Assembly (NCBI GenBank): GCA_030549905.1
Contig: JAUQQK010000013.1
Location: forward strand, 1 to 42,552
Direction: 5' to 3'
Source of the DNA: Aquificota bacterium
Lineage (GTDB): Bacteria; Aquificota; Aquificia; Aquificales; Aquificaceae
Length of the DNA stretch: 42,552 nucleotides
Shown here: positions 24,989-28,938 of the stretch, piece by piece
How the letters are laid out: each line of letters opens with the position of its first letter
Position numbering within the stretch: the first letter of the stretch is position 1
The notes under the pieces: generated by a model
What the model was told of the DNA's origin: nothing
Database searches by the model: none
The model's input: only the letters and a program-made list of their open reading frames with translations
Translations under genes and position numbers: made by a program

Positions 24989-26215
24989 TTACTTTATCAA
25001 CTCTCCCAGCTTAAAGATGGGCATGTAGAGGGCAATAAGTATAGCACCCACTATGCCACCTATAAACACTATAAGCATGGGCTCTATCAGCTTTATCATA
25101 CCCTCCACCGCCTTATCAAACTCGTCTTCGTAAAAGCGAGCTATTGTGTCAAGCATTTCATCAAGGCGACCCGTGTCCTCTCCCACCCTTACCATTGCTA
25201 TAACCAGCTTCGGAAACATGCCGGTCTTTTCCAGAGCTCTGTGCATTGGTTCACCTTCTATGACCGCCTTCTTAGCCGATTCAAGGGCTTCCTTTATGAC
25301 CACATTACCCGTAACCTGTCCTGCTATTTCAAAAGCCTTTTCCAGAGCCACACCGCTTGAGAAAAGGGTTGCCATAGTCCTTGCAAACTTTGCCATGGTG
25401 CTTTTCATGACCAGCTCACCCATCTTGGGAGCCCTTAACATAAAGCTGTGCACAGACTTTCTAAACTGATAGCTTTGAGCCATAAGGAATCTGAATATAA
25501 GGGTAAAACCTACTATAAAAAGTATGATGAAGAGCAGGTTATTTCTTAATGCATTTGAGGCGGCTATCAGCATCTGGGTCGGTGCTGGAAGCTGACCGCC
25601 CAGGCTTGCGTATATCTCCGCAAAGGTAGGCACAAGAAAGTAGAGTATGCCTGAGACTATGGCAGTTGCCACTATAACCACAAAGGTGGGGTAAAAGGCT
25701 GCGCTTTTTATCTTGCTTTTAATCATTGCAAGCTTTTCATAGTAGTCCGCAGCCCTTATAAGAGCCACATCAAGACTGCCCGTTTCTTCACCCACCCTTA
25801 CAAGATTTATAACAAATTCGGGAAAAACCTTCGGAAACTCAGCCATGGAGCTGGATATGGGCCTTCCTTCGCTTACCATCTGGGCTACCTTCTTTGAAGC
25901 CTCCGCAAGATTTTTATTCGGCAACTGCTCGCTAAGGATGTTTAAAGCATCTATTATGGGCAGTCCTGCGTTCACCATGGTGCCAAGTTGTCTACAGAAG
26001 ATGGATATGTCTCTATCGCTGACACCACCGCCAAGTTTGAAGGGTAAGCTAAATGCCTTTTTTTCCTTTTCTTCCCTATCCACTTTTACAACTTCTACAA
26101 GGTTCAGGCCTCTTCGCTGAAGCTCAGCTATAAGGGCTTCCTGTGTAGGATAGCTTTCCTCACTTTCTATCAAAGCACCATTTTCATCGAAGGCCCTGTA
26201 TCTGAACCTTGCCAT
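24989..26215 (-). CDS. pilC: type IV pilus inner-membrane platform protein PilC
   Basis: 408 aa. Two T2SF/GspF domains with the three expected membrane segments (about 170-200, 220-245 and 375-400). The start MARFRYRAFDENGALIES and repeated blocks GLPIIDALNILSEQLPNK / GVALEKAFEIAGQVTGN and VRVGEETGSLD / VRVGEDTGRLDEML are diagnostic. It forms the membrane base of the pilus machine that PilT drives. It begins one base after the pilT stop and has a GAGAGG site. pilB and pilin genes are not in the window. Confidence 0.96.
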   Translation of the reverse strand: MARFRYRAFDENGALIESEESYPTQEALIAELQRRGLNLVEVVKVDREEKEKKAFSLPFKLGGGVSDRDISIFCRQLGTMVNAGLPIIDALNILSEQLPNKNLAEASKKVAQMVSEGRPISSSMAEFPKVFPEFVINLVRVGEETGSLDVALIRAADYYEKLAMIKSKIKSAAFYPTFVVIVATAIVSGILYFLVPTFAEIYASLGGQLPAPTQMLIAASNALRNNLLFIILFIVGFTLIFRFLMAQSYQFRKSVHSFMLRAPKMGELVMKSTMAKFARTMATLFSSGVALEKAFEIAGQVTGNVVIKEALESAKKAVIEGEPMHRALEKTGMFPKLVIAMVRVGEDTGRLDEMLDTIARFYEDEFDKAVEGMIKLIEPMLIVFIGGIVGAILIALYMPIFKLGELIK

Positions 26216-26216
26216 T

Positions 26217-27311
26217 TTAAATCTTCCTCTCTAACATTTTTTCAAGCTCCTTAGGGTCTGGCGAGTACTTATAGGCGTCCTCAAGGCTTATCAACCCAGC
26301 CCTGTAGTGTCCGTATAAGGACTGGTTCATGGTCTGCATACCCGTCTGAGCCTGTCCGCTCTGCATTATAGAATATATTTGCTGAAGCTTATTTTCCCTT
26401 ATCAGGTTCCTTATGGCTGTATTAGGCACCATAAGCTCATAGGCAAGCACTCTACCTCCCCCAATCTTGGGCACTAACCTTTGAGATATAACACCCTGAA
26501 GCACAAAGGAAAGCTGTATACGTATCTGCTCCTGCTGTTCTGGAGGAAATACATCTATAATCCTTGTTATAGTGGAGATGGCCGTGTTTGTATGAAGGGT
26601 TCCAAAGACCAGGTGTCCTGTTTCCGCAGCTCTTAATGCAATCTCAATGGTTTCCAAATCCCTCATCTCGCCCACAAGGATAACATCAGGGTCTTCCCTG
26701 AGGGCCGCCCTGAGTGCATCAGCGAAGCTATGCACATCCTCACCTATCTCCCTCTGATTGACTATGCTCTTTCTGTGGTAAAACACGTACTCAATAGGGT
26801 CTTCTATGGTGATTATGTGATGTGGAAAGGTTTCGTTTATGTAGTTTATCATTGCCGCTAAGGTGGTTGTTTTACCAGAACCAGTGGGACCCGTCACTAG
26901 CACAAGACCCATGCTTTTATGACATAATTCAAGCACTTTTTCTGTAAGACCCAGCTCTCGCACGCTCATTATCTTATTGGGCAACCGTCGGAAGACAGAA
27001 GATATAGAACCCCTCTGCACAAAAACATTTGCCCTGAACCTGCCTATGTCTTTAACTCCAAAGGAAAAATCTACCTGCCCCCTTTCTTCAAGTACCTTCC
27101 TATGCTTTTCTGACATAACCGAGTACGCTATCCTTTGAGTCATCTCTGGAGTTAAGGTAGGATATTCTATCAAGGGTGTTATCTTTCCATCTATACGCAG
27201 GCAGGGCTTTGCTCCCGCGGTGATGTGAATATCCGAAGCGTTTAATTGAACAGCCTTTTGCACTATGTCAATAAGCTTTACATCCGCAGTACCGCCTACT
27301 GTGGGTGTCAA
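26217..27311 (-). CDS. pilT: type IV pilus retraction ATPase PilT
   Basis: About 364 aa starting at a TTG (27309-27311) preceded by a strong GAGGAGGG site; the frame is open further upstream but that extension would cross the purC start and adds non-homologous residues. Motifs: NASDIHITAGAKPCLRIDG, Walker A GPTGSGKTTT, Asp box ITIEDPIEYV, Walker B VILVGEMRDLETIE, His box TGHLVFGTLHTNTA and the PilT-specific AIRNLIRENK. It powers pilus retraction and twitching motility. It is divergent from purC, with overlapping -10 boxes, and is followed at once by pilC. Confidence 0.96.
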   Translation of the reverse strand: MTPTVGGTADVKLIDIVQKAVQLNASDIHITAGAKPCLRIDGKITPLIEYPTLTPEMTQRIAYSVMSEKHRKVLEERGQVDFSFGVKDIGRFRANVFVQRGSISSVFRRLPNKIMSVRELGLTEKVLELCHKSMGLVLVTGPTGSGKTTTLAAMINYINETFPHHIITIEDPIEYVFYHRKSIVNQREIGEDVHSFADALRAALREDPDVILVGEMRDLETIEIALRAAETGHLVFGTLHTNTAISTITRIIDVFPPEQQEQIRIQLSFVLQGVISQRLVPKIGGGRVLAYELMVPNTAIRNLIRENKLQQIYSIMQSGQAQTGMQTMNQSLYGHYRAGLISLEDAYKYSPDPKELEKMLERKI

Positions 27312-27325
27312 TTCCTTCCCTCCTC

Positions 27326-27338
27326 TATAATTATTATA
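27326..27338. promoter_or_regulatory. symmetric bidirectional promoter core (purC / pilT)
   Basis: The 13-bp TATAATTATTATA holds TATAAT on the plus strand (27326-27331, for purC; expected start 27338, the A of its ATG) and TATAAT on the minus strand (27333-27338, for pilT; expected start about 27326, leaving a leader of about 15 nt with the ribosome site). Confidence 0.65.
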
Positions 27339-28036
27339 TGAAATTTTTGTACGAAGGCAAGGCAAAGAAGGTTTATGAACTGGACGAAAGGACATGCGTG
27401 ATATATTTTAAAGACACTGCCACAGCCTTTGACGCCACAAAGAGGGCTGAAGTGGAGGGTAAGGGTATTATTAACAATGCCATTTCCAGCCTGCTCTTTG
27501 CTCTCTTAGAGGAAAGGGGAATAAGAACCCACTTTATTAAAAAACTTTCAGATAGAGAAATGCTCGTGTGGAAGGCTAAAAGGCTTGACATAGAGGTAGT
27601 GGTTAGAAACATCACCGCTGGAAGCCTGTGCAAAAGGCTTGGTCTAAAGGAAGGTGAAAGGCTAAAAAAGCCCCTTGTTGAGTTGTTCTACAAGAAGGAC
27701 GAGCTTCATGACCCGCTTATATGCGCGGAACATATTCTAATGATGGGGCTAACAGACGCAAAAAGTCTCAGGGCGATAAGAAGAACAGCTCTTAAGGTTA
27801 ACAGCATTCTTAAGAACTTCTTCAGGGAACATGGGCTTTTGCTGGTGGATTTTAAGTTAGAGTTTGGTTTTTTGCCAGATGGCACCCTTGCGGTTATTGA
27901 TGAGATATCCCCAGATACATGCAGGCTTTGGGATGCAAAAACGGGGGAAAAGTTAGATAAGGACCGCTTCAGGTTTGACCTTGGAGACCTACTTGAAGGC
28001 TACAAAAAGGTGCTTGAGCGTCTTCAGGGCGGGTAG
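27338..28036 (+). CDS. purC: phosphoribosylaminoimidazole-succinocarboxamide synthase
   Basis: 232 aa from the ATG at 27338, giving the usual MKFLYEGKAKKVYE start. SAICAR synthase joins CAIR and aspartate with ATP in purine synthesis. Motifs: YFKDTATAFD, NAISSLLFALLEERGIRTHF, VVRNITAGSLCKRLG, KLEFGFLPDGTLAVIDEISPDTCRLWD. No ribosome site; the ATG is exactly 7 nt beyond a TATAAT, so the mRNA should be leaderless. The last 13 nt overlap the convergent peptidase gene. Confidence 0.97.
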   Translation: MKFLYEGKAKKVYELDERTCVIYFKDTATAFDATKRAEVEGKGIINNAISSLLFALLEERGIRTHFIKKLSDREMLVWKAKRLDIEVVVRNITAGSLCKRLGLKEGERLKKPLVELFYKKDELHDPLICAEHILMMGLTDAKSLRAIRRTALKVNSILKNFFREHGLLLVDFKLEFGFLPDGTLAVIDEISPDTCRLWDAKTGEKLDKDRFRFDLGDLLEGYKKVLERLQGG

Positions 28037-28503
28037 ACAATAAGCATGACCTTCCCCATCTTTGACCACATGCCCTCAAGCTTTTCTTCTTCAAAGGCTT
28101 TTTTAGCTTCATAGCCCGTATGGGCATAAAAGACCCTTCCCTCGTAGCCTACTATTACTATATAATGTGGCACGCTTACCCACAGCTTCCCCATATCTAT
28201 CAGTAATATGGGTGGAATACCTCTATCTATCAGTGCTTTGACTTCTTCAAGACTGCCCTGTTTCAGCTCTGTTTTAAATCCCTTTTTCCTGGCATAATTT
28301 TCTAAGTCTGTTATCAATGCCCCTTTGAGTTTTGGGTTATAAACGCTCTTAGCTATCTCTTCCTGTGATACATCAAGCCCATAATATTTTAGAAGGGAAC
28401 TTAAAGAAGCTGGACCGCAAAAATGGTCTCTTTGCTGGACAAATGGCACGTCAATCAGCTTAAAAGATAAAAGAAAGGGCAGGAGAAGGAAAATTAAAAT
28501 CAA
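28024..28503 (-). CDS. C39-like cysteine peptidase (PA2778-like)
   Basis: 159 aa. A hydrophobic N-terminus (2-15) acts as signal peptide or anchor. The papain-like C39 core has the nucleophile Cys29 in QQRDHFCGPASL and the catalytic His113 in VPHYIVIVGYEG; the third catalytic residue is not obvious. The pattern (IDVPFVQQ...CGPASL...GALITDLENYARKKG...PHYIVIVGY) fits the PA2778 family of exported cysteine peptidases, here without the TPR part some members have. The start appears to be a TTG at 28503. It directly follows a PA2779-like gene, the same pairing seen in proteobacteria. Function unknown; a processing protease for a secreted product is a reasonable guess. Confidence 0.78.
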   Translation of the reverse strand: MILIFLLLPFLLSFKLIDVPFVQQRDHFCGPASLSSLLKYYGLDVSQEEIAKSVYNPKLKGALITDLENYARKKGFKTELKQGSLEEVKALIDRGIPPILLIDMGKLWVSVPHYIVIVGYEGRVFYAHTGYEAKKAFEEEKLEGMWSKMGKVMLIVYPP

Positions 28504-28504
28504 T

Positions 28505-28897
28505 TTATCTTATTATTATCTCCTTATTGAGCAGTTTTAGAAGTATAACAAGCAGTATGGCTACTATAAGCACCCCTATTAACAATCCAAGCCCATCTCC
28601 TCCTGCCAAAACTTTGTCGGAGGCTTTTGCAAGCATATGTATCTGCTCATCGTTCATCTCAGAAAGCTTCTTTTCTATTTCTTCCTTTGTAAGCCCATAG
28701 GCTTTTAGCTTCTCTTCTACCAGTTTGTTTTCAAGGGCTCTTTTTATCTTTGCAACTTCCTCATCTCTTTTCATAGACAATTCCTCGCTGGCTGGCTTGG
28801 AAGATACAAGCCCAGCAATGGCTGGAGCTGAGTTAAAGGTGAAGAACCATCCTGCAACCGCCAAGGCCACTGCAGGTTTTCTTAGCTTCCTCAACAT
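28505..28897 (-). CDS. PA2779-like small membrane protein
   Basis: 130 aa. N-terminal hydrophobic signal or anchor (about 8-29), a charged helical middle with KRDEEVAKIKRALENKLVEEKLKAYGLTKEEIEKKLSEMNDEQI, a GGDGLG linker and a C-terminal transmembrane helix (about 104-123) ending in NKEIIIR. This arrangement matches PA2779-family proteins, whose job is unknown. It has a good AGGAGGT site and its own promoter, with a 14-bp palindrome between the two. The next gene is a PA2778-like peptidase, one base away. Confidence 0.75.
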   Translation of the reverse strand: MLRKLRKPAVALAVAGWFFTFNSAPAIAGLVSSKPASEELSMKRDEEVAKIKRALENKLVEEKLKAYGLTKEEIEKKLSEMNDEQIHMLAKASDKVLAGGDGLGLLIGVLIVAILLVILLKLLNKEIIIR

Positions 28898-28910
28898 ATC
28901 TCCACCTCCT

Positions 28911-28924
28911 ATAACTTAAGTTAT
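28911..28924. promoter_or_regulatory. 14-bp perfect palindrome, possible operator
   Basis: ATAACTTAAGTTAT is a perfect inverted repeat at about +2 to +15 of the PA2779-like transcript, just before its ribosome site. Position and symmetry suit a repressor site; no regulator is assigned. Confidence 0.45.
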
Positions 28925-28932
28925 GCTTAACA

Positions 28933-28938
28933 ATTATA
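28933..28938 (-). promoter_or_regulatory. extended -10 box for PA2779/PA2778-like pair
   Basis: TGATATAAT on the minus strand, directly after the purN stop. The expected start near 28926 gives a leader of about 28 nt with a ribosome site. Confidence 0.6.

Follow-up and report, generated by a model that had tools for sequence, protein, structure and literature searches.

The gene pair PA2778/PA2779 is known by its locus-tag names only, and its products have been assigned to a family of C39 peptidases (profile NF033920) and a family of small proteins (profiles NF033919 and DUF6627). A search of open-access full text, with most subscription papers outside its scope, found no functional study of PA2778, PA2779 or the family accessions, and nothing on a C39 peptidase together with a tetratricopeptide, a lipoprotein and the periplasm. 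In the accessible parts of three reports, a transposon insertion between PA2779 and PA2780 was pursued as a PA2780 effect (PMC3985676), a PA2779-family gene of P. stutzeri DSM4166 is tabulated among strong-promoter candidates (PMC10155442), and the PA2778 start codon was lost in one clone (PMC3697988). Here we describe a related pair from an Aquificota bacterium of the Aquificaceae with thermophilic relatives, lying on contig JAUQQK010000013.1 of assembly GCA_030549905.1, the full 42,552 nt of which are referred to as the window. It is proposed, with a probability of about 0.5, that the C39 enzyme of this pair is exported and cuts its PA2779-family neighbor after an Ala-Gly-Gly sequence situated just outside the membrane helix of the latter.

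Three described arrangements provide a basis for comparison. The PA2778/PA2779 pair, sharing with that of the window the small-protein family and the C39 domain, is found in betaproteobacterial plasmid records of Azoarcus sp. KH32C and Eleftheria terrae, where gene order and direction are as in the window. The C39 and tetratricopeptide repeat (TPR) portions are fused in both records (296.6 bits over NF033920 positions 23-252, and 303.3 bits over positions 1-253 of 255, respectively), whereas they are two genes in the genome of the window. The peptidase domains of the AMS/PCAT transporters ComA, PCAT1 and LahT resemble the window's enzyme in fold (TMt 0.74-0.86, isolated domains), in the positions of Cys and His, and in the AGG/AGA-type site of the presumed substrate. 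Unlike these domains, the window's C39 protein stands alone, is apparently exported, is accompanied by no ABC transporter, and belongs to a group in which the Asp of the catalytic triad is mostly Thr; the leader-like helix of PA2779 also differs from the AMS/PCAT leaders, being shifted by one residue and acidic at position -7. The available part of a report on the Pseudomonas Fap amyloid system describes FapD as a C39 enzyme with a Sec signal peptide acting in the periplasm, and an active-site Cys mutant as abolishing FapC secretion (PMC5557850). Among precedents for a C39 enzyme of the periplasm, FapD comes closest. The window peptidase scores only 14.1 bits against the FapD profile NF058616 (cut-off 330), and the other fap genes were not searched for.

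The gene for the PA2779-family small membrane protein, the proposed substrate (130 aa; positions 28505..28897, minus strand), precedes that for the C39-family peptidase (159 aa; 28024..28503, minus strand), which has a TTG start and an N-terminal hydrophobic segment that reads as an export signal. The two are separated by a single base, as the original prediction had stated. A possible ribosome site for the peptidase gene, AAGGAG (28520..28525, minus strand), lies within the last codons of the PA2779 gene, 16 nt from the TTG, with similar junctions in relatives. The occurrence of the pair exceeds chance, with E-values of 1.8e-23 for NF033919 and 1.8e-24 for NF033920. The small protein belongs to the PA2779 family, matching NF033919 (PA2779_fam) with 83 bits over profile positions 4-116 of 123 (cut-off 40) and Pfam DUF6627 with 31.6 bits (cut-off 27). 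The claimed kinship to the PA2778 and PA2779 families is borne out for the pair, although only the small protein reaches its family cut-off. The peptidase, with 86.6 bits against C39_PA2778_fam (NF033920), falls below the cut-off of 150, because only positions 2-147 of 255, the catalytic half, are matched; it does exceed the cut-offs of Pfam Peptidase_C39_2 (PF13529; 52.3 bits, cut-off 24) and Peptidase_C39 (PF03412; 49.2 bits, cut-off 22).

The enzyme resembles double-glycine peptidases in its predicted fold and in the positions of Cys and His. The catalytic residues named in the original prediction, Cys29 (codon at 28417..28419, minus strand) and His113 (28165..28167, minus strand), can be read from the codons and are invariant in 20 of 20 aligned homologues, aligning with the Cys of the ComA CGPA motif and with the ComA His. 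The oxyanion residue Gln24 is equally invariant and lies 5 residues before Cys29; in the available part of the LahT study, the corresponding Gln21 and Cys27 are 6 apart (PMC6363468). The AlphaFold model built from the 20-sequence alignment has a mean pLDDT of 94.4, and the best Foldseek match among PDB structures is ComA (3k8u, TMt 0.84), with PCAT1 also matched, and LahT150 with bound leader (6mpz) matched at TMt 0.82-0.84 and rmsd 1.8. By eye, most of the 20 homologues start with a hydrophobic export-type segment, and one (L129) has a lipobox-like sequence.

The PA2779 protein carries a candidate site for such an enzyme. Its N-terminal hydrophobic segment (residues 1-28; 28814..28897, minus strand) ends in AIA|GL and reads as a signal peptide; among 97 aligned relatives, the last Ala before the break is kept in 94% by weight. 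The two membrane anchors originally predicted are therefore doubtful, since an AxA-type site suggests a cleavable signal peptide and hence a single remaining anchor, the predicted C-terminal transmembrane helix (residues 103-123; 28529..28591, minus strand), which is supported by a hydrophobic sequence and an AlphaFold helix with pLDDT 78 for residues 101-110 and 89 for residues 111-120. Just before this helix lies Ala-Gly-Gly-Asp (residues 98-101; 28595..28606, minus strand), where cleavage is proposed after Gly100; in the low-confidence model of the protein the site occupies a loop, preceded by a helix at 83-97 and followed by the membrane helix. A search of solved structures with PA2779 gave no match at an E-value of 1 or below. 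In an alignment of 97 distinct sequences (35 clusters at 62% identity; five fragments, L132, L133 twice and L047 twice, were dropped from 102), the two Gly columns before the helix rank second and fourth in conservation of 114 ranked, counting three PAGA rows as Ala, or second and third if the gap of those rows is ignored. The dipeptide is GG in 91 of the 97 sequences, GA in 4 and AG in 2, and the preceding residue is Ala in 91% by weight. According to the available part of the LahT study, C39 substrates end in GG, GA or GS, Ala occupies position -3 in nearly all of the peptides examined there, and positions -4, -7 and -12 of LahT150 substrates occupy a hydrophobic groove (PMC6363468). PA2779 agrees with this pattern at -1 to -3 and at -12.

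The distribution of the genes across the phylum adds a third component. The half of the PA2778 profile that the window peptidase leaves unmatched (TPR, positions about 165-254) is absent from that protein and corresponds to a separate lipoprotein gene, which in the window's genome lies on another contig (G000:C4:66209-66640, the window being contig C6). The phylum sample comprises 101 genomes, and, as relatives are not independent, the counts that follow measure association and not numbers of events. Matches were taken as full strength at 145 bits or more for the C39 peptidase (all others scored 45.8 or less) and at 160 bits or more for the TPR lipoprotein (all others 66.4 or less), weaker matches being treated as other proteins. 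PA2779 exceeds its cut-off in 43 of the 101 genomes, and a full-strength C39 peptidase is found in exactly these 43. The recurrence of such pairs, originally placed in proteobacteria, extends to the window's own phylum, where the pair is intact in all 43; in a deltaproteobacterial phylum, PA2779 occurs in 73 of the 297 genomes sampled. The TPR lipoprotein occurs in 40 of the 43 genomes with the pair and in none of the 58 others. In the window's family (named relatives are Thermocrinis, Hydrogenobacter, Hydrogenobaculum and Aquificaceae metagenome-assembled genomes (MAGs)), where this gene is unlinked, it occurs in 26 of 28 genomes with the pair and in 0 of 18 without. A Thermocrinis-like genome (G075; L047, L151) has a broken PA2779 gene and neither C39 nor TPR match at full strength; in another genome (G086; L028) no C39 gene adjoins PA2779, and one is found on another contig. 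Among 18 further genomes of the family, one (G114) has all three genes and 16 have none at full strength.

The linkage of these three genes varies. In family f2 of the phylum, whose named relatives include only Persephonella, Sulfurihydrogenibium and Hydrogenothermaceae MAGs, and at many deltaproteobacterial loci, the TPR gene directly follows the C39 gene. At 28 of 29 loci from the deltaproteobacterial phylum (L167-L195, the best-scoring PA2779 matches and not a random draw), C39 and TPR lie directly downstream of PA2779 in an unchanged order, as a single fused gene in 13 cases and as two genes in 15, while the remaining locus, L184, ends at a contig end. By contrast, in nine single-contig genomes of the window's family (G007, G009, G010, G011, G013, G016, G019, G026 and G031), the pair and the TPR gene are at least 270 kb apart. 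Because the unlinked TPR gene is distributed like the pair, the association of the trio does not rest on operon structure alone. The window pair is thus two parts of a dispersed three-part set and not the two-gene system that had been predicted.

The numbers of the two genes also bear on their relationship. A search for C39 in each of the 15 genomes that gave two or more PA2779 hits returned a single match in 10 of them. No C39 gene adjoins thirteen of the PA2779 copies (L197, L198, L202, L204, L206, L208, L210, L212, L213, L215, L217, L218 and L219; for L208 and L219, fewer than 440 bases of contig lie downstream), and at L222 two tandem PA2779 genes are followed by one C39 and one TPR gene. 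This surplus of PA2779 copies over C39 fits a processing system and not a fixed 1:1 complex. The suggestion in the original prediction that the peptidase may process its small partner is strengthened by the Gly-Gly/Gly-Ala site, the matching distribution and the PA2779 surplus, with cleavage itself still a prediction.

A number of observations weigh against cleavage of PA2779. The fold of the enzyme is also common to papain-like proteins, including 3erv (second by E-value, TMt 0.62), PeiR and staphopains, and therefore does not by itself fix Gly-Gly specificity. The column of the triad Asp, with its register taken from the ComA alignment, is occupied by Thr in 14 of the 20 homologues and by Asp, Asn and Ser in 3, 2 and 1, respectively, with Thr129 in the window's enzyme. 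An export segment is lacking from the C39 frame of five Thermocrinis-like genomes, and the product would stay cytoplasmic. On the side of the substrate, the AlphaFold model of PA2779 is poor (pLDDT 66.3, pTM 0.27), and hydrophobic residues are found at -5, -8 and -12 rather than at -4, -7 and -12. Position -7 is mostly acidic (Asp 69%, Glu 15% by weight), and the available part of the LahT study reports that Asp at -7 strongly impaired LahT150 cleavage (PMC6363468). At the multi-copy loci (28 PA2779 hits at 27 loci), the site is GG in 21, VAGD in 6 (three genomes) and VGKD in 1 (L216). The tail KEIIIR is likewise conserved, although conservation there would be superfluous in a simple anchor. 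A second C39 match is present in five of the 15 multi-copy genomes; it is weak in two (G332, 64.6 bits; G283, 51.8 bits), has a stop inside in G208, consists of one of two partial matches at contig ends in G285, and is substantial in G306, where the second PA2779 hit is itself below the cut-off (27.9 bits). Two genomes that are 99% complete (G014 and G021) have the pair and no full-strength TPR match, and one of the further genomes of the window's family (G113, 69% complete) has a partial TPR match of 110.8 bits in the absence of the pair; the third TPR exception, G096, is 83% complete and its C39 match begins at a contig end.

Some of these same features would be accounted for if PA2779 were not a substrate but a non-cleaved membrane partner bound by the C39 domain, with the Gly-Gly serving as a flexible hinge before the helix, on the model of the catalytically inactive C39-like domains that bind substrates in type 1 secretion. 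Replacement of the triad Asp in 17 of 20 homologues, the acidic residue at -7, and the conservation of the tail and helix of PA2779 all point in this direction. However, an inactive domain would have no need of Cys29, His113 and Gln24, which never vary, the use of GG and GA mirrors C39 cleavage sites, and a bound partner would not be expected to outnumber C39 as PA2779 does in 10 of the 15 multi-copy genomes. This explanation is considered unlikely.

One further question is whether the enzyme acts on something other than its neighbor. C39 could process another exported substrate, with PA2779 and the TPR lipoprotein as anchors or chaperones comparable to the accessory proteins of FapD, whose own target is unclear in the available part of the report (PMC5557850), and the substrate gene may lie elsewhere in the genome. 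Against this, neighborhoods of up to 18 kb, some of them much shorter at contig ends, contain no other gene that stays with the trio from family to family, and PA2779 copies occur without an adjoining C39 gene. In the window's family purN and purC often flank the pair, and both are read as bystanders. The existence of a separate substrate is judged improbable on this evidence.

A sortase-like activity is a further alternative, in which C39 would act as a transferase that cuts PA2779 after Gly-Gly and passes the new Gly end to lipid, peptidoglycan or the TPR lipoprotein. The acyl-enzyme chemistry of cysteine peptidases allows such a transfer, and the end of PA2779, with AGGD, a helix and a tail containing K and R, resembles a sorting signal. 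No acceptor was identified, however, the C39 enzymes known to us are hydrolases, and the conserved tail sequence sets PA2779 apart from sorting signals, whose tails are disposable, such that a transferase appears highly improbable.

Under the proposal that C39 cleaves PA2779, the following sequence of events can be envisaged. As its sequence suggests, PA2779 would be exported and lose its signal peptide, with one C-terminal helix holding it in the inner membrane, while the enzyme, modeled with the fold of double-glycine peptidases, would likewise be exported. C39 may then recognize the amphipathic helix preceding the membrane helix, and a cut after Ala-Gly-Gly would release the helical periplasmic domain of PA2779 from its anchor. 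The TPR lipoprotein might tether or dock enzyme and product at the envelope. We think that the released domain would more likely have a role in envelope structure than as a toxin, because the set is conserved within whole genera.

Other associations of the three proteins were pursued and rejected. In a search of 72,556 plasmids at E up to 0.01, the window-protein query P0002 had no match and query P0001 matched 6 records, two of them annotated as PA2778 family; with the betaproteobacterial pair as query, only the pair itself was matched, plus Azoarcus for the peptidase. Spread of the pair on plasmids was rejected. A role in defense was likewise rejected, since neither window protein matched a PADLOC model at E up to 0.01; the TPR lipoprotein gave three weak matches (20-26 bits), to TPR and PrimPol models. 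Nor is the TPR lipoprotein identified as the type IV pilus pilotin PilW, since its scores of 54.3 and 67.2 bits fall short of the cut-off, 154. Positions 24989-27395 of the window, next to purC, hold type IV pilus-type genes that we take from their sequences to be PilC-like and PilT-like; the likeness of the lipoprotein to PilW is weak. At the unlinked TPR loci of the window's family, an EAL-domain gene and a gene that is presumably ffh-like flank 10 of 15, and are read as bystanders; at one locus the EAL-domain protein (L075:7560-8216; 33.4 bits, cut-off 31.3) overlaps the start of the TPR lipoprotein gene. A record titled 'Acidobacteria bacterium' (L100, RFFP01000014.1) carries an Aquificaceae-type PA2779, 75% identical to that of the window, together with C39, and is probably a mislabelled MAG.

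The C39 reading frame is unusual in a subset of relatives. At 9 of 42 junctions, the 40 to 100 codons that are open ahead of the catalytic Cys include neither ATG nor GTG nor TTG; the scan went up to 100 codons and reached that length in two frames. Five of these frames are Thermocrinis-like (L024, L033, L036, L038 and L040) and four Hydrogenobaculum-like (L015, L017, L019 and L043). They are conserved and, with pN/pS of 0.06-0.32 inside them, under purifying selection as protein. The codon overlapping the PA2779 stop is ATA or GTA in all nine, and GTG or TTG in several relatives; in the Hydrogenobaculum-like frames a signal-like sequence begins at the ATA/GTA codon, and the Thermocrinis-like frames lack the export segment. 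Translation of these frames may involve non-standard initiation or a frameshift.

Expression of the pair was originally predicted to be controlled through a palindromic operator. The region upstream of PA2779 contains a TATAAT that resembles a -10 element (28933..28938, minus strand) directly after the purN stop codon, and the apparent ribosome site of the PA2779 gene, AGGAGG (28905..28910); between them, as predicted, sits a perfect 14-bp palindrome in the 5' leader, ATAACTTAAGTTAT (28911..28924). The -10-like element is kept within the genus: 10 of 12 genomes, the window's included, have TATAAT no more than one base past the purN stop. The palindrome is absent upstream of the pair in 11 of 11 same-genus relatives, though 9 of the 11 keep the -10 beside the purN stop. 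Furthermore, perfect palindromes of 14 bp or more number 3 in the window, and 60 first-order Markov shuffles gave 2.7 on average and 7 at most. The exact sequence occurs once in the 1.65-Mb genome, and with up to 2 mismatches is found in 5 places, versus 7 for the reversed control, showing no enrichment. A specific operator controlling the pair, for which the position of the palindrome and its single exact copy in the genome might speak, is thus scarcely credible; having failed on conservation, shuffle count and genome search, it is rejected, along with the predicted regulation, and the palindrome is judged a chance feature.

What the pair may represent more generally can be put forward tentatively. 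PA2779 and C39 may belong to a widespread envelope system in which an exported C39 enzyme cuts small membrane-anchored proteins at Gly-Gly immediately on the periplasmic side of the inner membrane; one enzyme would serve several substrates in some genomes, and the TPR partner can be fused, adjacent or unlinked. Double-glycine processing would then exist in a third form, next to FapD and the leader removal that is coupled to transporters. If the proposed cleavage does take place, it would explain a family present in 73 of 297 genomes of the deltaproteobacterial phylum and 43 of 101 of the window's phylum. For a previously uncharacterized pair, predictions are now available for the scissile bond, the enzyme and a third partner.

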